The position numbers and the translations under genes are program-made. This document shows, piece after piece, positions 3,590 to 13,756 of a stretch of 64,000 nucleotides of DNA (its first letter is position 1; each line of letters begins with the position of its first letter). The DNA comes from Chloroflexi bacterium HGW-Chloroflexi-10 (GTDB lineage Bacteria; Chloroflexota; Anaerolineae; Anaerolineales; Anaerolineaceae): NCBI GenBank assembly GCA_002840755.1, contig PHBZ01000032.1, positions 1 to 64,000 of the forward strand, in the 5' to 3' direction. The notes beneath the pieces are model-generated. The model did no database searches and was not told the origin of the DNA. It saw nothing but the letters and a program-made list of their open reading frames with translations.

Positions 3590-5344
3590 TTATGAGGCTG
3601 TCTTGTGTTTGTAGAATTTTGGGTCTAAAGTTCGCAGAAGTTGTTCCGTTGCGCCAGCGCCTTTTAGACCTTGCTTATCAATGAGATCCACTCCAGATAT
3701 TTGAAATATCTCAACTGTTTTCTCAAAGATGGCTATGGATTGCTCTCTGTCTAATAAAATTTTGATAATTGGGTTACAGTACGATTCTGTGTTCTTTTCA
3801 CTATTAAGCATATTATTGTCAAAACCATGTGGATACGCAGGATTTGCTATTTTTCCAAATAGCATAATCAGAAACCATTTAACTTTTCTGTAACTGGTAT
3901 CAATTTCCCTGGCTCTAAATAAAGAATCTAATCGGTAATACGCTAATCCGGCGGTGTAATAGGGCAAATATTTATGTGCTGGATGGAATATTGTTGGTTT
4001 TTCACCTTCTACGTTTTGCTTAAGCACTAATCCAAAATAAGCAGTAACTCGATGAGGAATATCAACAAACATTGAACCGAATGCTTTGATTTGATTTTGG
4101 ACAGTAATAACTCTGGATTTTGCTACAGAACCATCGGTATGGTATTGCTTTGTTCTACGTTCATAATAGATGCGTCCATCTCCCTGAATAGTATTATAAA
4201 AATGCTCCAAATTTTTCTGAAAATCTTTCATTGCTTGTAATTGTTCACGTTTGATAGCAGTTTGACTATTTGTAGCAATAGTAATTCTATTTTTGACTTC
4301 ATCATTATTAGTGACTATCAACCTAACTGGAATACGCAATTCTTGCAATTCAGGCTTAGATGTATGCAGGGACAAAACATTACTGGTTTGGCACCCATTT
4401 ACAATTTGGTAATCGATAATAGTAAACTTATTCCCCGAAGCCTTTAAATCGTTAGCGACAATTGTCACCCCATTATTCAAAACAGTAAAAAGTTCAGGAA
4501 TATCGCCAACAAGGGTAGTTTCGATAGTTTTATTAATCGGGTTGTTTAGACCTTGAAAATCTCTTACATTGTCGTCAAATATATTAAGAAGATTGCCCTT
4601 ATCATCGAAAAGAATTTTTCTAAATTCTGAAAGAGGAACTAATCCATAATATGCTTCGCTGATTTGTGGCAATTCAGGCAATGTAACCTTTTCGGTGAAG
4701 GTAAAAGTTGAAGATGTAGAATTTTTGGTATCACGATAATATTTTGCTATTGTGCCTGTGTCCATCGGGAAAAAAGATACCTGTGAGAACAAATTGGTTT
4801 GGGTTAAATCTACCTTTGCGGTTTCTATGATGGCTTTATTGTTTTGATCATTTGCCCATGTTCCTGTTGTCACATAATATAAACTGCATTGTGGGTTTTC
4901 TCTAAAATGTCTGGCTTGCTTGAATATGTAATCTGCTAAGTTGGCAAAGGCTTGGATATCGTCACTGCGAACTAATCGCGGATTTTCAGCAAAAAAATCT
5001 TTAACACCAAAAGCAAAATTATTCATCTCACTACTGTCAAATCCACCTGAATTTTTGGTTTGAACAAAAATAAATTTGACATCCAGCGTTCCATTGTTCG
5101 CAAGCATGAGATCAACTTCCTCAGTATTTTCTACAATTGACCCATTAACGATTATCGCGATTCCATCTATTCCTGTGTCATTTCCTTTGCCTATACTAAC
5201 ATTTTCAATTTCAAACTCCCGATTGTATTCATGGGCTATTATTGCATAATTCGCAAATAATTCAAAATCTTGGTCAGGCGTTGTGGGTTTCCGTTCAAAA
5301 CTTGCCAAAAAATCATCTAACAAATGCTTAAGAATTCTATCCAT
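3590..5344 (-). CDS. AIPR-family abortive phage-resistance protein
   Basis: The 584-residue protein matches the AIPR family (abortive infection phage resistance, PF10592) in overall plan. An N-terminal part has an acidic, nuclease-like section (DTGIDGIAI..., then VQTKNSGGF). The diagnostic core follows, with NNGVTIVAND and the hallmark IVNGCQTSNVL at about residues 290-325 and TNSQTAIKREQLQA about 40 residues further on. Members limit phage propagation, in some cases by triggering host shutdown; the mechanism is not visible here. An AAGGAG stands 11 bases before the ATG. The gene is bounded by 9-base inverted repeats, CGTGCCAAC (5386-5394) and GTTGGCACG (3573-3581), suggesting a mobile cassette. 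No partner toxin or methylase is adjacent. Confidence 0.85.
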   Translation of the reverse strand: MDRILKHLLDDFLASFERKPTTPDQDFELFANYAIIAHEYNREFEIENVSIGKGNDTGIDGIAIIVNGSIVENTEEVDLMLANNGTLDVKFIFVQTKNSGGFDSSEMNNFAFGVKDFFAENPRLVRSDDIQAFANLADYIFKQARHFRENPQCSLYYVTTGTWANDQNNKAIIETAKVDLTQTNLFSQVSFFPMDTGTIAKYYRDTKNSTSSTFTFTEKVTLPELPQISEAYYGLVPLSEFRKILFDDKGNLLNIFDDNVRDFQGLNNPINKTIETTLVGDIPELFTVLNNGVTIVANDLKASGNKFTIIDYQIVNGCQTSNVLSLHTSKPELQELRIPVRLIVTNNDEVKNRITIATNSQTAIKREQLQAMKDFQKNLEHFYNTIQGDGRIYYERRTKQYHTDGSVAKSRVITVQNQIKAFGSMFVDIPHRVTAYFGLVLKQNVEGEKPTIFHPAHKYLPYYTAGLAYYRLDSLFRAREIDTSYRKVKWFLIMLFGKIANPAYPHGFDNNMLNSEKNTESYCNPIIKILLDREQSIAIFEKTVEIFQISGVDLIDKQGLKGAGATEQLLRTLDPKFYKHKTAS

Positions 5345-5588: not shown

Positions 5589-5650
5589 AAAAAACCACCG
5601 GCGTGATTAATCACGCCGGTTTATCATTCGGCTGAGGGGGACAGCCGAAT
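5589..5650 (-). ncRNA. Predicted small RNA A, two hairpins
   Basis: On the minus strand a -10 box TATACT (5662-5657) is followed six bases later by a compact unit. Hairpin I (5650-5626) has a 9-bp stem and the 7-nt loop UCCCCCU. A 5-nt linker follows, then hairpin II (5620-5597), a perfect palindrome, and a run of six U at 5594-5589: a textbook intrinsic terminator. Predicted length is 62 nt. No gene lies upstream on this strand that would need terminating. A second unit of the same architecture, spacing and length lies 110 bp away. The C-rich loop could pair with Shine-Dalgarno-like G-rich mRNA sites. The function is inferred. Confidence 0.6.
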
Positions 5651-5656
5651 ATAGAT

Positions 5657-5685
5657 AGTATAACGGAATTCCGCAAAAATGCACA
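5657..5685 (-). promoter_or_regulatory. Promoter of small RNA A
   Basis: TATACT at 5662-5657 with a weak -35 candidate, TGTGCA, 17 bases upstream on the minus strand. The expected start, about position 5650, coincides with the first base of hairpin I. Confidence 0.4.
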
Positions 5686-5698
5686 TAAAAAATGCGTT

Positions 5699-5760
5699 AA
5701 AAAAACCACCGGCGAGCAAAGCTCACCGGTTTTATCCTGATTGAGGGGGGCAACCAGGAT
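5699..5760 (-). ncRNA. Predicted small RNA B, two hairpins
   Basis: This is a second copy of the small-RNA architecture with a diverged sequence. Hairpin I (5760-5734) carries the 7-nt loop CCCCCCU, a 3-nt linker follows, then hairpin II (5730-5708) and seven U (5705-5699). Two positions that are mismatched on the plus strand (A-C and C-A) become G-U pairs only in minus-strand RNA, so base pairing itself indicates the transcribed strand. The -10 box TATAAT ends six bases before the first base of hairpin I, exactly as in unit A, and the predicted length is again 62 nt. Confidence 0.65.
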
Positions 5761-5766
5761 AGTCCT

Positions 5767-5796
5767 ATTATAGACCATGTTATAGGTTTGTGTAAG
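5767..5796 (-). promoter_or_regulatory. Promoter of small RNA B
   Basis: On the minus strand a consensus TATAAT (5772-5767) is preceded at 18 bases by CTTACA, which matches four of six -35 positions. This is the better of the two small-RNA promoters. Confidence 0.5.
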
Positions 5797-6231: not shown

Positions 6232-6293
6232 CAAAGCCGCGAAAAGGCGTCATACTCTATCTGTAATTTAGAACACAAATTCTAAAAAGGAGT

Positions 6294-6869
6294 GTGAATG
6301 ACAAAAGACTTTGTTCCGGCTTACCAACCATCCCCAACCCGGCCTGTTTCGGAGCGTGCCCTGTGAACCACCCAGCCCCGGTCAAACGCAAACGCGGCGG
6401 GCAGCCCGGCAACAACAACGCCTTCAAACACGGCTACTATGCCAAAACCTTTCAGACGGTGGAAAAATCCGACCTGGAAACCACCGACAGTGTCCACCTC
6501 ACAGATGAGATCAACATGCTGCGCGTCTTTATGCGCCGCGTCCTCGAACAATCCGAATCGGCCGATAATCTCACCGAATCCCTCTTCACCCTGCGCACCC
6601 TCTCCCTGGCCTCCTCCACCGTCAACCGCCTCATCAAAACCCAGGCCGTCAATTCCCTCAAGGAATCCGGGGACGCCTACAAAAAAATCTTCGAATCCAT
6701 GAACGAACTCTCCGACAAACAGTATACCGAAGACCCCTTCTTTGATGACCTTTGGGACGAAGTTCATGCCATTGAAGATAAATACGCCAGGAAAAGGGAA
6801 GAATACTTTCGCTCCATTGGCAAATGGCCCCCCGAAGACCACGATGCCAGGTACAGACTCCTCCGCTAA
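6294..6869 (+). CDS. Terminase small subunit-like phage protein
   Basis: The 191-residue frame contains KRKRGGQPGNNNAFKHG near residue 30, the basic Gly-Gln-Pro-Gly-Asn signature seen in phage small terminase-like proteins. A helical C-terminal half follows. Position directly before the large terminase supports packaging-site recognition as its role. The start is uncertain. The GTG at 6294 is only one base from the GGAG, whereas an ATG at 6298 in another frame is well spaced but ends after 22 codons, next to a GTG in the main frame (Val-25). Either the protein starts at that GTG by coupling, or there is a frameshift near the N-terminus. GC-rich compared with the upstream genes. Confidence 0.55.
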   Translation: MNDKRLCSGLPTIPNPACFGACPVNHPAPVKRKRGGQPGNNNAFKHGYYAKTFQTVEKSDLETTDSVHLTDEINMLRVFMRRVLEQSESADNLTESLFTLRTLSLASSTVNRLIKTQAVNSLKESGDAYKKIFESMNELSDKQYTEDPFFDDLWDEVHAIEDKYARKREEYFRSIGKWPPEDHDARYRLLR

Positions 6870-7355
6870 CCATTCGTACCCTATTCGAAGCCTATTCGTT
6901 CCAAAACGAATACAGCACATTAACAACCACATATAGCCCCTCACCACCCCTGCAAACCGCAATTACCGGGTTTTTGCTGAAAAATACATTCGTTCCGATT
7001 GGATTTTTTCTCAACGAAAACGCAACGCGCTCCGAGCGCAGCGAAGGAGACGAATGAACGAATACGCAACCCACACCGCGGCGATTCCCGATAAATCGTG
7101 TACGGGCGAAGCATTTGCAAAAGACCTTCCGGGTCCCAATCTACACTCACCTGCAAATGCTTCGCCCCTCCGTCCCCCGACGGCGACACCGATATAACAA
7201 TCCTCCAGACCCACCCGGCCCTTTTCAACTCGCCCTTCCCTTCTCCCTCGTACGGGCGATGGCGAGAGCAACCCGGCCCACACGTTAATCCCCCCGAAGC
7301 CTCGCCCTTTCCCACACCCAAAAGTCCCCCCCCCATTTCTAAAAAAGGAGTTTCA
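6870..7355. repeat. Intergenic region with 16-bp inverted repeat
   Basis: No supported gene. GGGCGAAGCATTTGCA (7104-7119) and its exact reverse complement (7152-7167) enclose a 32-bp loop. This GCGAAGCATTTGC phrase resembles dispersed repeats of Anaerolineae chromosomes (from memory, not searched). The remainder is C-rich spacer leading to AAAAAAGGAG before the terminase leader. Confidence 0.5.
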
Positions 7356-7391
7356 ATGACACAACCAACCATCCTCACCGGTGATTTCTAA
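7356..7391 (+). CDS. 11-codon leader ORF before terminase
   Basis: ATG follows a strong AAAAAAGGAG at five bases and opens an 11-codon frame ending in TAA one base before the terminase ATG (7393). The terminase ATG itself has no ribosome binding site of its own, so the short ORF may feed ribosomes to it by reinitiation. It could equally be a chance frame caused by a frameshift at the terminase start. Confidence 0.3.
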   Translation: MTQPTILTGDF

Positions 7392-7392
7392 C

Positions 7393-8931
7393 ATGTCCGA
7401 TATCCTCGCAAACCTGGATGATCCAAAATACTCTCTGCTGCAAGGCGGCCTGGCCGACCCTCAAAGCTTTACCAGCATCGGCCAGTTAACCCTGCGCAGC
7501 TACCAGGTCAAAGTCTTTCGTGCGATCGTGCGTTCGGTGATCAACCAGCTCGGGTTGAGTTTTGTGGTCATGTTTCCGCGCCAGAGCGGAAAAAATGAAC
7601 TGCAGGCCCAGATAGAAGCCTTTTTGTTAATGCATTATTTTCGGAGAGGCGCGGAGATGATCAAAATCTCACCCACCTGGAAACCCCAATCCCAGAACGC
7701 CATGAACCGCCTGGAGCGGGTGCTCAACCGGCATCCGCTCCTGAATCAGTTCTGGACGTGCGAACAGGGTAACCGTTTTCGCTCTGGCGCCGCCCTCCAA
7801 ACCTTTCTCTCCGGGTCGCCGGAGGCCAATATCGTCGGCGCCACAGCTTCCACCCTCCTCCAGGTCGACGAAGCCCAGGATATCCGGATCGATAAATACG
7901 ACAAGGAAATTGCCCCGATGGCCGCCAGCACCAATGCCACCCGCGTTTTCTGGGGCACCGCCTGGACGGCAGATACCCTCCTGGCGCGTGAGCTGCAATT
8001 GGCCCGCGAAGCGCAGGACCGCGATACGATCCGGCGTGCCTTTGTCTTAACCGCAGACGCTGTCGCCGCCGAGGTGCCCGCTTATGGCGCCTTTGTCCGG
8101 CAGCAGATTGAACGTTTGGGGCGCACTCACCCCATGGTGCGCACTCAGTTTTTCTCCGAGATGCTCGAATCCGGCGGCGGCTTGTTTACCGCGGCGCGCC
8201 TGGCCCTCATCGCCGGCACCCATCCCAGTGAGCTGCGTCCCCGTCCGGGTCTGCCCTATGCTCTGCTCCTGGATGTTGCCGGGGAAGACGCAGCCGCCGG
8301 GCAGAATACGCTGGAAAACCCGCAGCGCGACTATACCGCCTTAACCGTGGTGGCGGTGGATGGTTCACAGCCGGCGCCCTGGGGTGGGCATTGGACGGTC
8401 TACCGCGTCGTCGCCCGTAAAGCCTGGCACGGCATAGCCCACACCCAGTTGTACAGCGAACTCCTCGCTCAGGCGCGCCATTGGGGCGCTCAGCGGCTGG
8501 TAGTGGATGCCAGCGGCGTCGGCGCCGGGATTTGCAGCTTCCTGGAACGTGCTTTGCCCGGCCGGGTCACGCCCTTTGTCTTTACCTCCGCCAGTAAAAG
8601 CCGCCTGGGCTGGGACTTCCTCGCGCTCATCGACAGCGGGCGTTACCGCGAGCATTCTGATGCGACGCCGGAGCAGGACATTTTTTATGAAGAAGCCCGC
8701 GCCTGCCGATACAGCACCGGCAGCGGGGTGGAACGCCACCTGCATTGGAGCGTCCCGTCTGGTCTGCGGCGCTCCGCGGATGGCAGCCTGCTGCACGATG
8801 ATTGGCTCGTCTCGGCCGCCCTGTGTGCGGTGTTGGAAGGCCACAGCTGGGGCGGCAGTATTACCCGCATCATCCGCGCGCCGGACCCCCTCCTCGAGAT
8901 GGACGGCCGCTGGCTGCGCATCCCCGATTAA
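7393..8931 (+). CDS. Phage terminase large subunit
   Basis: This is the DNA-packaging motor, with ATPase and nuclease. From the ATG at 7393 it is 512 residues, the usual size. An adenine-binding and Walker A-like segment (MFPRQSGKNE, about residues 58-67) and a Walker B-like LLQVDEAQDI at about residue 155 form the ATPase half. The C-terminal half shows the RNase H-like nuclease acidic residues: LLLDVAGED near 295, LVVDASGVGAG near 370 and HDDWLVSAAL near 470. Followed 18 bp later by the portal gene. Motifs appear intact, so the enzyme may still be functional. Confidence 0.88.
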   Translation: MSDILANLDDPKYSLLQGGLADPQSFTSIGQLTLRSYQVKVFRAIVRSVINQLGLSFVVMFPRQSGKNELQAQIEAFLLMHYFRRGAEMIKISPTWKPQSQNAMNRLERVLNRHPLLNQFWTCEQGNRFRSGAALQTFLSGSPEANIVGATASTLLQVDEAQDIRIDKYDKEIAPMAASTNATRVFWGTAWTADTLLARELQLAREAQDRDTIRRAFVLTADAVAAEVPAYGAFVRQQIERLGRTHPMVRTQFFSEMLESGGGLFTAARLALIAGTHPSELRPRPGLPYALLLDVAGEDAAAGQNTLENPQRDYTALTVVAVDGSQPAPWGGHWTVYRVVARKAWHGIAHTQLYSELLAQARHWGAQRLVVDASGVGAGICSFLERALPGRVTPFVFTSASKSRLGWDFLALIDSGRYREHSDATPEQDIFYEEARACRYSTGSGVERHLHWSVPSGLRRSADGSLLHDDWLVSAALCAVLEGHSWGGSITRIIRAPDPLLEMDGRWLRIPD

Positions 8932-8949
8932 AACCACAAGGAGAAAACC

Positions 8950-10332
8950 ATGAACTTGCTGAAATTTTTCCGATTACCCTCTCATAGCCCCAAAGAAGAA
9001 CACAGCTCGATGCAGCAAACCGCCTGCCCGCCCCTGATGCTGATGCCCACTCAGGCGCGAGACCGTCAGGTCTACGACCAGCACACCATCCTGCAGCAGG
9101 CCCTGGAAGCCTGGCGCACCAATCCGTTGGCCCGCCGTCTGGTCGGGCTCACCAGCCAGTATGTGGTCGGCGGCGGTATCCGTGTCCAGTGCGCCCACCC
9201 GGCTACCCAGGCATTTCTCGATCGCTGGTGGCGCCATGAGCTCAATCAGTGTGCGCTGCGTGCCTATGAATGGTGTGACGAGCTCACCCGTTCCGGCGAG
9301 TTGTTTTTTCTGCTCTCCAGTGATGCGGCCGGGATGAGCTATCTGCGCGCGGTGCCGGCCGCCCAGATTGGCCGGGTGGAGACCACCGCCAACGACGTGC
9401 AGCAGGAAACCGCCTTTTGCCAGCAGCTTCCCGGTCAACTGGCCGCGGAGAAAACCTGGCCGGCCTACCAGGCGCACGCGGACCAGCCCGGCGCGGACGG
9501 CTGCTTTCCGCCGGTGATGTTCCATTTCGCCATCAACCGCCCGGTCGGCGCGGTGCGCGGCGAAAGTGACCTGGCCCCGCTCCTGCGCTGGTTGAACCGC
9601 TATGCCGCCTGGCTGGAAGACCGCGCCCGCCTCAACCGCTTCCGCAATGCCTTTTATTTTGTGGTGCGCGCCCGCTTCTTAAATGAAGGCGAACGTGCAG
9701 CCCGGCAGGCCACCCTCAATACAGTCCCGCCCACGCCCGGTTCAATTTTGGTCACCGATGAATCCGAACAGTGGGAGGTCATCCACCCGCGCCTCGAGAG
9801 CCATGAAGCCGGTGAGGATGGCTTGAGCCTCAAGAAGATCATCGCCGCCGGGGCAGGGGTGCCCTTACATTTTTTGGCCGAGCCGGAAGGTTCCACGCGT
9901 ACCACAGCCGAAGCCGCCGGCGGGCCCACCTTCCGCCATTTTGAGCAGCGCCAGCAGTTCTTCTGCGAGCTGCTCAGGCAGTTAGCCCAGGCAGCCGTAC
10001 GCCGCAGGGCGCACTACGATAGGCGCATAGACCCGCAAACGCGTATCCAGGTCCTGGGTGCCGATCTCAGCGCCCGCGATAACGCCTCACTCGCCATCGC
10101 CACCCGTTCCGCCAGTCAGACCTTCCTCGATCTCTACGACCGCGGTCTGATAGGCGATCAGGAATTGCTGCGTGTCATCTACCGCTTTTCCGGCGAAGTG
10201 GTCGATCCGCAAACCCTCGGCAGCCAGCCCCAGCGCAAAGCCCGCCGCCCCCGTCAGCCCAGGGCAGCCCGCTCGGACGTCAACATTGCCCGCGCCATAG
10301 ACCCTGAGAGCGGCGAACCGCGCCAGTTGTAG
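8950..10332 (+). CDS. Phage portal protein
   Basis: A 460-residue protein in the conserved place after the large terminase, with an AAGGAGAAAACC ribosome binding site. Portal-like features are the N-terminal NPLARRLVGLTSQYVVGGGI, a central WxxELTRSGELFF section, a conserved HFAINRPVGAVRGESDLAPLL near residue 200 and the LSLKKIIAAGAGVP/FLAEP segment near residue 310. The portal forms the dodecameric DNA channel at one capsid vertex. The Arg/Pro-rich C-terminus is typical of tails lying inside the head. Confidence 0.85.
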   Translation: MNLLKFFRLPSHSPKEEHSSMQQTACPPLMLMPTQARDRQVYDQHTILQQALEAWRTNPLARRLVGLTSQYVVGGGIRVQCAHPATQAFLDRWWRHELNQCALRAYEWCDELTRSGELFFLLSSDAAGMSYLRAVPAAQIGRVETTANDVQQETAFCQQLPGQLAAEKTWPAYQAHADQPGADGCFPPVMFHFAINRPVGAVRGESDLAPLLRWLNRYAAWLEDRARLNRFRNAFYFVVRARFLNEGERAARQATLNTVPPTPGSILVTDESEQWEVIHPRLESHEAGEDGLSLKKIIAAGAGVPLHFLAEPEGSTRTTAEAAGGPTFRHFEQRQQFFCELLRQLAQAAVRRRAHYDRRIDPQTRIQVLGADLSARDNASLAIATRSASQTFLDLYDRGLIGDQELLRVIYRFSGEVVDPQTLGSQPQRKARRPRQPRAARSDVNIARAIDPESGEPRQL

Positions 10333-10376
10333 CCCTAGAAAAAGCAAGATCAGCATATTTTTGAAAGGAGGTTTTT

Positions 10377-12293
10377 ATGAGTGAAGCTCAATCCCCAATT
10401 TCTGCCCGCGTCCAGCTTCACAACGCGGTCGTATACCCGGCGGATCAGCCGCTTGAGGGCAGCCCGGCGGGCGAGGCTTCTGCCTTGTTTGAGGTAACTG
10501 CCATCACCGCCGGCGAAGGCAACGGCTGGAACTTTACCAGCGAGTGTCTCAGGCACTCCCTGCCGTTATGGGAGGGCGTCGAAATTTTCATCGACCACCA
10601 GCAGGGCAGCGGGCGCAGCCTGCGCGATTTGGCCGGTGTCGGTTTTGCCGCCCGTTTTGATGAAACCTGCGCCGGTATCCGCCTGCAGGTGCGCCCCTCA
10701 GGGCCCAGCGCCCGGCTCCTCGCCACCATTGGCGCCGAGTGGCTCGCCAGTGCCGCGCCGCGCCCAAGGGTCGGCTTCAGCGCTGATGTCGTCTTTTCAG
10801 CGTCCGAGCAAACCGTGATGGAGATCCTCAAAGTCATCAGTCTGGACCTGGTCTACCGCCCGGCGCGTGGCGGTCGTTTTAACCGTTTGTTCAATCAGGA
10901 ATTCTCAAATCAGGAGGAAGAAACATATATGAATACCCATGAAACCCCAATACTAACCACCCCCTCGGAGCCCGAGCAGCATTTGCAGGCGGATCTGCTC
11001 CATGTCAAGCAGGCGCTGCTGGCGCTTACTTTAAAGGAAAGCGGCCTGCCCGAAGCAGCGCAGAGCCATGTGCGTACCCAGTTTTCCGGGAAACCCCTCT
11101 TCCGCATGGAAGAGCTCGAAGAGGCAGTTCGCCAGGAGCGCGAACTCCTCGCCAGCTTGCAGGGCGCGTCCCGCATCCACAGCGCCGGGCGCGTGGAAGG
11201 CATGTTCAACGAGCGTGACCGTATCCAGGCCGCCGCCGATGATTTGTTGGGTGCCCCGCGCGAAAAAAGCGCCGGCAGCTTGCATGTGGCTTCCCTTTCC
11301 GGCATCCGCGAGTTGTATCTGCATCTCACCGGCGACCACGACTTCCACGGCAAGTACGCCCGGCACGCCCAGCTCGCCGACAGTAATTCCATGGCCAATG
11401 TGCTCAAGAACAGCTTTAACAAGATCATGCTGCGCCAGTGGGAAGAATTGGGGCGCGCCGGCTACCGCTGGTGGGAGAAGGTGGTCACCGTCGAGCACAT
11501 GAATTCCCTGCAGCCGGTCAGCGGGATTCTCCTCGGCGAGGTGAGCGCGCTGGGTGTGGTGGATGAAGGTTCGGGTTATGGCGAACTGGAGATCACCGAC
11601 AGCGGTGAGAGCCAGGCTTTCAAAAAATACGGCGGGCTGCTGCCGGTCACCCTCGAGATGATCGATAAGGATGAAACCCACAAACTGCGCCAGCTGCCCA
11701 ATAAACTGGCGGCTTCGGCGGTGCGCAATATTTCCAGCCTGGTAGCCGGCCTCTTCAGCGGCAGCAGTGGGGTCGGGCCGCTCATGACCGATGGCCTGCA
11801 TGTTTTTGAAGCCGGTGTGCATGCCAACCTGGGTACGGCGGCCCTCAGCGCAGCCAGTTTTGAGGCGGCCAGCCAGGCCATTTACCACCAGGGCATGCCC
11901 TCAACCGACACCCAGAAACCCCACCTGGCCGTGGATGCGCGTTACCTGTTGGTCCCGCGGGCCTTACGCCTGACGGCCATGCGCATTCTCTATCCCAGTT
12001 TCGAGCGCGAGAGCAATATCTTTGCCGAGAATATGCAGCGCGGCGAACTCGGGGATGTGATCACCGTCCCGGATTGGACAGATGCCAACGATTGGGCAGC
12101 CATGGCCGATCCGCGCTTTGCGCCGGGCGTGATCATTGCCGAACGCTTCGGCCTGCTGCCGGAGATCTTTGTCGCCGACAACGAACAGGGCTTCGACATG
12201 GTCCACAACGACACCATCAACCTCAAGGTGCGCCATTTCCTGGCCGTCTTCGTCGCCGATTACCGCCCCCTCTACAAGGCCAACGTAGCCTGA
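10377..12293 (+). CDS. Capsid protease-scaffold-major capsid fusion
   Basis: One 638-residue frame appears to combine three head functions. Residues 1-175 resemble a prohead maturation protease (compact beta-rich domain with a FIDHQQ His motif, then VGFSADVVFS). Residues 185-310 are charged and helical like a scaffold or delta domain. Residues 330-638 look like an HK97/Mu-type major capsid protein (MANVLKNSFNKIMLRQWEEL, then long beta-rich A and P domains). It starts after AAAGGAGG at a good distance. An internal ATG at 10930 has its own AGGAGGAAG eight bases upstream, so the scaffold-capsid part could also be made separately. Assignments rest on pattern and gene order, not a search. Confidence 0.75.
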   Translation: MSEAQSPISARVQLHNAVVYPADQPLEGSPAGEASALFEVTAITAGEGNGWNFTSECLRHSLPLWEGVEIFIDHQQGSGRSLRDLAGVGFAARFDETCAGIRLQVRPSGPSARLLATIGAEWLASAAPRPRVGFSADVVFSASEQTVMEILKVISLDLVYRPARGGRFNRLFNQEFSNQEEETYMNTHETPILTTPSEPEQHLQADLLHVKQALLALTLKESGLPEAAQSHVRTQFSGKPLFRMEELEEAVRQERELLASLQGASRIHSAGRVEGMFNERDRIQAAADDLLGAPREKSAGSLHVASLSGIRELYLHLTGDHDFHGKYARHAQLADSNSMANVLKNSFNKIMLRQWEELGRAGYRWWEKVVTVEHMNSLQPVSGILLGEVSALGVVDEGSGYGELEITDSGESQAFKKYGGLLPVTLEMIDKDETHKLRQLPNKLAASAVRNISSLVAGLFSGSSGVGPLMTDGLHVFEAGVHANLGTAALSAASFEAASQAIYHQGMPSTDTQKPHLAVDARYLLVPRALRLTAMRILYPSFERESNIFAENMQRGELGDVITVPDWTDANDWAAMADPRFAPGVIIAERFGLLPEIFVADNEQGFDMVHNDTINLKVRHFLAVFVADYRPLYKANVA

Positions 12294-12517
12294 CCGTAGC
12301 GGCGAGGCACGCCCCGCCGAGTAATCAGGAAAAAGGAAACAGGAATCTGGAATTAGGAAAAAAAGGTCTGAGTATTCATAGGCCCAATTCCTGATAACCA
12401 CTTCCCAATCCCCAATTCCTAATAACCACTTCCCAATCCCCAATTCCTAATAACTAATCTTCACTTCCTCATTACTCACAACTCATCACTCATTACTATC
12501 TTTCAAAAGGAGTCCCT
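12294..12517. repeat. Intergenic dispersed-repeat region
   Basis: No gene. Contains three near copies of a CACTTCCCAATCCCCAATTCC phrase and related ATTAC/CTAATAAC runs, plus CAGGAAAAAGGAAACAGGAA in the opposite sense. This is the same repeat family as at 5926-6152. It ends with CAAAAGGAG, the ribosome binding site of the holin-like gene. Confidence 0.55.
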
Positions 12518-12721
12518 ATGCAAAAACTAAAATTCTTACTCGCCTCCCGCAAATTCTGGGCGGCATTGGTTGGGCTGGTGTTCGTGGTCTTACAGGCCTG
12601 GAACCCGGATTTTCCGCTGGAAGCGGAACAGGTGAGCAACCTGATCTATGTGCTCGTTGCCTACATTCTCGGGGTAGCCCTGGAAGACGGCGCGCGTAGT
12701 GTCCAAAACCGCAAGGATTAA
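12518..12721 (+). CDS. Holin-like small membrane protein
   Basis: A 67-residue protein with a positively charged start and two hydrophobic segments (about residues 13-27 and 40-57). An acidic and basic tail follows. The size, the topology and the position just before a lysozyme gene fit a phage holin, which would open the membrane for the endolysin. AAAAGGAG lies seven bases before the ATG. I cannot name the holin family. Confidence 0.65.
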   Translation: MQKLKFLLASRKFWAALVGLVFVVLQAWNPDFPLEAEQVSNLIYVLVAYILGVALEDGARSVQNRKD

Positions 12722-12746
12722 TTTTCCGGAAGGAGGTGGTGCCACA

Positions 12747-12771
12747 CCGGGTCTGGTTCAACCAGACCCGG
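12747..12771. terminator. 10-bp hairpin between holin and lysozyme
   Basis: CCGGGTCTGG and its exact reverse complement enclose a 5-base loop. No T-run follows, so it may be an mRNA structure and not a terminator. The rest of 12722-12937 holds short CTCGTACCTAACCTC repeats and the AATAAGGAGG of the lysozyme gene. Confidence 0.35.
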
Positions 12772-12937
12772 CAAATCCATCCTAACCTCGTACCTAACCT
12801 CTTACCAAAGCTCGTAGCGAAACTCATCGTGCCCTTCAGGGTAGTATTTCGCGTTTTTGAAGGCTCGTAACTCAATCCCCTCGCAGGGCGGGTGGTTTTT
12901 CAAACAATCTTTTATCACCGAATAATAAGGAGGTCTT

Positions 12938-13756
12938 ATGTTCAATCAATATTGCCTGGGAGTGGATGTTTCCCACTGGCAGGCGCAGGTGGAATGGCCG
13001 CAGTTGTATGCCGCCGGGGTGCGCTTCGCCATTGTCAAAGCCACCCAGGGTAACTATCGCCGTGATCTCTTGCTGCATACCCATCTTCACGGCGCGGCCG
13101 CCGCCGGTATGCTCTGCGGAGTCTATCACTGGTTCGACCCGGCCAACAGCCCGGCCAGCCAGATCACCAACTTGCAGGTTCACCTCAAGGGGCTGGATTT
13201 TGATTTCTGCGCGCTGGATGTGGAACAATACTGGCAGGATTGGGACGAGTGGAAGCGCCAGGCAGTCACCAGACGCTTCCCCGGAGAAGTGATCAGCCAG
13301 GGCAGCCTGGAGATGGCCCATAAGCTGCGCGCCTGGAGCGCTAAACCGCTGCTCATTTATACCCGCGCCAGTTTTGTGACCGAATATGCCCCGCAGATGA
13401 CCACCTGGCTGCCGGACTGGCCCTTGTGGCTGGCGCATTATCCCTACCCCGGCGGGCGGGTATCCGTCGGTTGGCAGGCGCTTAAGCAAAACTTTGCGCC
13501 CGCCATCCCCGGCCCGCTGCTGCCGGCGCGCTGCCCGGATTGGGACTTCTGGCAGTTCAGCGGGGATAAGTTTGTCCTGCCCGGTTGCCAATCTCCCTTG
13601 GATCTGAATTTTTTTCATGGGGATCTGCCTGCCTTGCAGGGCTGGTTGGGGCGCGTACCGCTTCCTGAGCTGACCCTGGAAGAAAAAATCCAGCGTTTGT
13701 GGCAGGCTCATCCGGATTTATGGAAACAACAGGAGGTGCTGTATGAGTCCGCGTAA
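12938..13756 (+). CDS. GH25 lysozyme (phage endolysin)
   Basis: A 272-residue protein with the glycoside hydrolase 25 signature: LGVDVSHWQ at the N-terminus (catalytic-site Asp), FAIVKATQG at about residue 31, GVYHWFDP at about 60 and the acidic ALDVEQYW near 90. It ends in DWDFWQFSG near 190. It would cleave peptidoglycan glycan strands during lysis. No signal peptide is visible, consistent with export through the upstream holin. Its last codons overlap the next gene by 14 bases. The preceding AATAAGGAGG is a strong ribosome binding site. Confidence 0.9.
   Translation: MFNQYCLGVDVSHWQAQVEWPQLYAAGVRFAIVKATQGNYRRDLLLHTHLHGAAAAGMLCGVYHWFDPANSPASQITNLQVHLKGLDFDFCALDVEQYWQDWDEWKRQAVTRRFPGEVISQGSLEMAHKLRAWSAKPLLIYTRASFVTEYAPQMTTWLPDWPLWLAHYPYPGGRVSVGWQALKQNFAPAIPGPLLPARCPDWDFWQFSGDKFVLPGCQSPLDLNFFHGDLPALQGWLGRVPLPELTLEEKIQRLWQAHPDLWKQQEVLYESA

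Follow-up and report, generated by a model that had tools for sequence, protein, structure and literature searches.

Two units arranged in tandem on the minus strand of the window (the whole 64,000-nt stretch of DNA analysed here) look like real small-RNA genes, their transcription being predicted from sequence. On the same kind of evidence, these two, units A and B, are members of a multi-copy sRNA gene family of one bacterial order, apparently Anaerolineales to judge from the names of the matches in the GTDB collection. The family is apparently undescribed so far, and it probably silences mRNAs with G-rich ribosome-binding sites, through predicted pairing. Its single-hairpin plan consists of a promoter, a spacing of ~6 nt, one ~16-bp hairpin with the loop CCCCCCU and a short U-run, ~47 nt in total.

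Two tandem units next to phage-like genes

The preliminary description had placed twin units of the same plan at 5589-5796, 110 bp apart. We located both as described (Table 1): each has a -10 box, six bases, a first hairpin with a C-rich loop, a short linker and a second hairpin followed by a T-run, and the C-runs of A and B start 110 nt apart. Compared with shuffled sequence, the folding energies are -32.3 kcal/mol for unit A (z -7.2) and -31.2 kcal/mol for unit B (z -6.5). The argument that wobble pairs in unit B point to minus-strand transcription held up: the plus-strand fold reaches -23.3 kcal/mol versus -31.2 kcal/mol on the minus strand, because two G-U pairs turn into A-C. The -35 element of unit B (CTTACA) is poor, and the region of A and B holds 10 promoter-like sites versus 9.2 in shuffles. 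An Rfam scan of the window returned only a tRNA at gathering level, with sub-threshold matches such as SQ1002 (E 0.018).

Table 1. Features of units A and B and of their surroundings in the window
Feature	Position	Strand	Basis or remark
Unit B, -10 box TATAAT	5772-5767	minus	weak -35 CTTACA at 5796-5791
Unit B, hairpin 1 (11 bp, loop CCCCCCU at 5750-5744)	5733..5761	minus	folding, model alignment
Unit B, hairpin 2 (10 bp, 5730-5708) and U-run (T7), predicted intrinsic terminator	5699..5730	minus	folding
Unit A, -10 box TATACT	5662-5657	minus	sequence
Unit A, hairpin 1 (9 bp, loop UCCCCCU at 5641-5635)	5626..5650	minus	folding, model alignment
Unit A, hairpin 2 (10 bp, 5620-5597) and U-run (T6), predicted intrinsic terminator	5589..5620	minus	folding
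AbiU/AIPR-type abortive-infection gene	3590..5344	minus	PADLOC AbiU, E 1e-118; next ORF downstream of A/B, co-oriented
Phage-like genes (terminase small and large subunit, portal, capsid, GH25 endolysin)	6294..13756	plus	pointing away from A/B

There is, as had been claimed, no gene on the upstream side for the units to terminate: the neighbor is a terminase-small-subunit-like ORF at 6294, on the plus strand and pointing away. Among the window ORFs scanned, none matched a tail or integrase gene. On the other side, the AbiU gene lies ~245 nt downstream of the tandem units in the same orientation, an arrangement that would suit an RNA antitoxin of the adjacent gene in the style of type III toxin-antitoxin systems. 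We consider this very improbable. A Pfam scan of nine near neighbors of five other two-hairpin loci (C29, C69, C82, C99 and C62), which are part of the flanking ORFs, revealed no AIPR, and none of 10 scanned representatives of neighbor clusters (24 clusters listed) was AIPR. Hence, RNA repeats standing constantly upstream of a cognate toxin, as in type III systems, were not seen in the neighbors scanned.

A two-hairpin form in this genome

A search of the genome with a loose pattern gave nine matches, versus one with a reversed control; five of the nine are real units, which adds three to A and B. Covariance model R1 was built from five two-hairpin copies, using the RNA part only and leaving the promoter out. 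Against its own genome, R1 found eight copies: seven are strong (E 1e-17 to 1e-23), including two that had not gone into the model, and one is decayed (E 8e-6). Although the promoter is absent from R1, a TAnnnT box stands a few bases before the hairpin in all eight two-hairpin copies. Three of the eight (C82, C99 and C62) have a second C-rich loop, in the terminator hairpin. The copies are spread over six contigs of an assembly with an estimated contamination of 6.67%. At E 1e-6, R1 matched this genome only among 301 genomes of the order, and the genome also holds four single-hairpin copies, detected with model R2 described below. As far as such matches tell, the version with a C-loop hairpin and a separate terminator has multiplied in this genome.

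A single-hairpin family across the order

R1 was also searched in 60 relatives, from which 29 loci were fetched (mixed matches, E 1e-4 to 1e-2). A clear single-hairpin relative is present in 16 of these loci; the other 13 have no C-loop hairpin and were excluded before model R2, which consists of the 16 loci and is thus selected for the C-loop hairpin. The apical sequences in the 16 are GGGUG-CCCCCCU-CACCC or GGUUG-CCCCCCU-CAACC, with one GGUAG-UCCCCCU-CUACC. The loop is nearly invariant as CCCCCCU (or U/A-CCCCCU), and the sequence of the stem drifts.

The preliminary description had proposed ~62-nt sRNA genes with a C-rich loop. Covariation, promoter spacing and strand-specific wobble throughout the order support the gene and its loop; the length has to be revised, since the form that is widespread has one hairpin and ~47 nt, not two hairpins and 62 nt. 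The covariance-model search of relatives that it had suggested did yield further copies, with compensatory changes and a conserved promoter distance. The relatives keep the promoter and the C-loop and have no separate terminator hairpin, which is the opposite of terminators that persist while C-loop and promoter are lost.

R2 matches are present in 37 of 41 genomes, this one included. In a phylum-wide sample, 36 of 400 genomes were positive, 35 of them in the same order; the sole positive outside it (G252) is weak (E 1.7e-4), and none of the 19 listed genomes of the same class and other orders matched. Within the order, at E 1e-4, matches occur in 238 of 301 genomes, in 148 of the 174 of good quality and in 92 of 112 genera, with 1-10 copies per positive genome. 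No match was found at this threshold in 63 of the 301 (26 of the 174), misses that are soft, since 15 to 20 candidates were scored per genome in the large searches and a model derived from the order may miss distant forms. Because of these 63 genomes the family is not universal in the order, which counts against the reading that we favor. One genus of this genome's own taxonomic family, g17, has no R2 match in any of the seven genomes shown (G023, G551, G577, G634, G639, G645 and G650); this apparent loss, seen at the sequence level, makes it a useful natural control.

An exact-pattern scan of the GTDB collection, with a pattern derived from this order's copies, gave at least 120 stretches. 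Among the matches listed, 77 of 80 are Chloroflexota (Anaerolineales, Anaerolineaceae and others, including Leptolinea tardivitalis and Pelolinea submarina), assigned by title or by genus, some of the genera being presumed to belong there. The remaining three are L138 and L175, with stems of 6-7 bp, and L196, whose near-identity to an Anaerolineales record (L120) suggests contamination. Tandem sets within 500 nt occur on at least 8 of 98 GTDB contigs, on 2 of 52 viral contigs and on one contig here besides that of A and B.

Stem, promoter and strand

Across the 16 loci of R2, compensatory changes occur at 13 of 16 base pairs, with 98.8% of cells paired and a score of 0.953, versus 0.268 in shuffles. 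A further test left the outer stem free, with 124 GTDB-collection copies, among the matches listed, picked by the loop and the six apical base pairs. A TAnnnT box lies at -34 to -22 in 116 of them. In these 116 copies, pairs 7-16 are 93-99% complementary and pair 17 is 51% complementary, and this drop indicates a stem of ~16 bp; in the eight copies without a box, pairs 7-16 are only 38-88% complementary. The corresponding viral set consists of 79 copies from viral contigs picked by the loop and 5 bp: the 60 with a box are 58% paired at base pair 6 and 70-93% paired at base pairs 7-16, and the 19 without are 32-58% paired. For stems of at least 11 bp, the promoter box is found in 104/108 GTDB, 55/57 other chromosomal and 52/55 viral copies. 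A region of the same size has it in 20/108, 12/57 and 7/55 when placed further upstream, and in 17/108, 6/57 and 17/55 when placed downstream.

These data bear on whether ordinary intrinsic terminators have been taken for genes. Hairpin 2 is a textbook terminator in both A and B, and among GTDB copies the nearest upstream ORF of at least 80 aa is co-oriented in 63 of 108. However, 33 of the 108 have that ORF in the opposite orientation and 12 have none in the stretch. In addition, 116 of 124 copies have the -10 box at a near-fixed distance, the loop hardly varies, and the U-runs are weak, with three or fewer T in a row in the tail of 64 of 108 GTDB copies. Terminators mistaken for genes are thus a very unlikely explanation, while the weak U-runs are also counted against an sRNA family. 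The predicted RNA is ~47 nt long (5-95% range 42.5-53.5; 211 copies). By sequence, the family has its own promoter, a C-rich hairpin loop and a predicted intrinsic 3ʹ end, as do sRNAs of the C-loop class, many of the single-hairpin U-runs being weak.

Where stem cells are not Watson-Crick pairs, G-U outnumbers A-C by 169 to 10 in the GTDB set, 90 to 1 in the relatives and 85 to 14 in the viral copies, the first two sets possibly sharing genomes. The excess of G-U shows selection on the RNA of the C-loop strand, and would be unexpected for a DNA palindrome or an RNA of the opposite strand. The scattered multi-copy palindromes of this genome could suggest a DNA-level repeat, such as a REP/MITE-like palindrome or a cruciform; given the strand asymmetry and the coupling to a promoter, we regard this as the least probable of the explanations considered. 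Viral stems are less clean, with 101 other mismatches in 660 cells, which also weighs against the favored reading.

Viral copies and chromosomal neighbors

A scan of IMG/VR gave 90 stretches, with 55 copies that have stems of at least 11 bp on 52 contigs, viral by IMG/VR classification. A terminase large-subunit gene lies within 3 kb upstream of the copy on 23 of the 52 contigs and a portal gene downstream on 7; five have both. The palindrome AGAA-N6-TTCT, or a close variant, is present in the promoter region of 13 of 55 viral copies and of none of the chromosomal copies (0/108 and 0/57). It resembles the Gram-positive LexA (SOS) box. Short protein motifs revealed no lexA or recA next to such palindromes in the 33 stretches searched, from five genomes, and control by LexA is thus a tentative reading based on this resemblance.

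One viral contig of 48.8 kb (L367) carries the two-hairpin form (70.7 bits), with two C-loops, adjoining an HNH-type gene that has a weak match in PHROG (E 0.002). The other 35 of 36 IMG/VR matches to the two-hairpin pattern have a C-loop stem of 3 bp or less and were set aside as chance. No blastn match to the family was found in isolate phages and plasmids.

Several further elements were seen near these sites. On four viral contigs (L256, L276, L280 and L310), a further element was noticed by eye within ~300 nt downstream of the C-loop sRNA, ahead of the next ORF. It comprises a TTGACA that resembles a promoter, a conserved stretch and a strong hairpin of terminator type, and is possibly another phage ncRNA. 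In the window, a palindrome like that of the viral sRNA promoters, TAGAACACAAATTCTA, lies at 6269-6284, just upstream of the terminase-small-subunit ORF. In three genomes (G047, G169 and G388), AGAAC-N4-GTTCT palindromes precede recurring families of ORFs (~139 aa, MSIWDRL..; ~250-276 aa) at L396, L401, L413, L414, L415, L418, L420, L422, L423 and L424, and one palindrome in G047 is 18 nt from a C-loop sRNA. By sequence, these sites form a candidate SOS regulon.

Is the RNA primarily a phage element? It could be a selfish or phage-serving RNA that spreads with phages and acts mainly in lysogeny or lysis, host copies being captured or remnant. This would fit the long-stem copies on 52 IMG/VR contigs and the terminase genes near 23 of them, the LexA-box-like palindrome confined to viral copies, the phage-like genes adjoining A and B, and the two-hairpin form on a viral contig. 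However, the same gene neighbors recur in many genomes, as expected for vertically inherited host genes, and we consider a phage-serving role unlikely. The recurrent neighbors of single-hairpin copies are a class-V aminotransferase (22 loci, mostly convergent), a SpoU-type methylase downstream of the copies (21 loci) and a 123-aa acidic protein without a Pfam match (17 loci, recurrently convergent, including L076, L079, L080, L081, L086, L088, L089, L154, L182 and L187). Also near some copies are obg and genes that, named from sequence by eye, are presumably recN and ftsK. No single partner gene accounts for the family.

Possible mode of action

What could so short an RNA do? With moderate confidence, we favor a multi-copy sRNA family whose exposed C-run pairs without Hfq with G-runs at or near ribosome-binding sites and blocks translation. 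The loop is taken as the working part because it is nearly invariant, the stem being kept mainly in structure. The RNA would be transcribed from a σ70-like promoter and be stable; its exposed C-run would then pair, independently of Hfq, with the G-runs and so prevent translation. The loop would be invariant because it must fit many mRNAs, with the stem a mere scaffold. The viral copies, some of which have an operator resembling the LexA box, would divert this control on infection or induction. The predicted duplex of the loop with G-run sites has an energy of -15 to -16 kcal/mol, versus -5.5 with AAGGAGGU. None of 41 genomes matched the Hfq model PF17209 at E 0.001; 5 of 14 control genomes did.

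Carriers show no enrichment of GGGGGG before ATG: the mean ratio to a reversed-pattern control is 1.77 in 10 carriers versus 2.41 in 10 non-carriers, in a crude test (p 0.045, carriers lower) confounded by lineage and GC. The ratio in this genome is 1.0. For mycobacteria, one report describes target prediction from C-rich regions as not accurate (PMC12395582). Since there is no G6 enrichment, we keep as an alternative a protein sponge or decoy, in which the C6U loop binds an RNA-binding protein and the multi-copy hairpins titrate it. The loop hardly changes in sequence or size throughout the order, although the stems vary, and might just as well be a site for a protein; 1-10 copies per positive genome with some tandem sets would suit titration. 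Against this, base pairing is how B11 and RepG act through their C-rich terminator loops: B11/6C uses its terminator C-loop to pair with guanine tracks near ribosome-binding sites (PMC12395582), and the C/U-rich terminator loop of RepG pairs with a G-repeat in an mRNA leader (PMC8295292). We give the sponge a minor but real chance.

A more far-reaching version of translational control by the C-loop is also rather doubtful. The ~47-nt RNA may be an Hfq-free global riboregulator of the order that temperate phages captured, often beside terminase and partly under LexA-type control. DNA damage would then flood the cell with C-loops favoring phage translation, and this genome would have amplified the phage-type two-hairpin version.

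Relation to known RNAs with C-rich loops

Tandem or abundant sRNAs with C-rich loops include the Cuckoo RNAs (CcsR) of Rhodobacter and sX13 of Xanthomonas. By description, these resemble the present family. An Rfam search that admitted E values up to 10 matched no family to the hairpins in 10 sampled loci and gave no row for RF01066. The preliminary description likewise named no known family of this kind. A literature search, thin on subscription journals, found among the papers listed no report of the C-loop family and no sRNA study for the group.

The closest likenesses are to 6C/B11 (RF01066) and RepG. 6C/B11 is a short structured sRNA whose hairpins have C-rich loops, with one of these loops in the terminator, and B11 has two of them, of six and nine C (PMC12395582). 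Plasmids can carry further copies of 6C, and in Corynebacterium glutamicum it is reported to have a role in the SOS response (PMC9569102). In contrast, the widespread form here is a single hairpin of ~47 nt with a near-invariant CCCCCCU loop, in another phylum. Two C-loop hairpins are the exception (C82, C99, C62 and L367), and 77 of 80 GTDB matches listed, obtained with a pattern built from this order's copies, are Chloroflexota and not Actinobacteria. None of 41 genomes exceeded the RF01066 gathering cut-off and two gave weak matches; the positive control was weak, since C. glutamicum, among the control genomes, scored only below the cut-off. The single RF01066 match in this genome, at C44:51762-51832 on the minus strand (L355), is a locus with two hairpins whose loops contain CCCC and CCCCCC; it matches the 6C model and R1 weakly, has no clear promoter and is perhaps a distant relative of the two-hairpin units. 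RepG of Helicobacter pylori resembles the family in the C/U-rich terminator loop that targets G-repeats. By description, it differs in being a single gene between hp1043 and hp1044 of strain 26695 (PMC8295292), whereas the RNA here is multi-copy, order-wide and, as a whole, one hairpin. As far as anatomy tells, the family resembles 6C or RepG and is placed in neither.

The family adds an order-wide RNA where no Rfam model matches. At ~47 nt and with one near-invariant loop, it is near the minimum for a base-pairing regulator, so that rules for loop-target pairing are directly testable. Chromosomal and viral copies, with an SOS-like palindrome on viral copies only, offer a natural host/phage comparison of one RNA. 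The resemblance to 6C of Actinobacteria, seen here in genomes without an Hfq match, would suggest that bacteria lacking Hfq have come to C-loops as a solution repeatedly.
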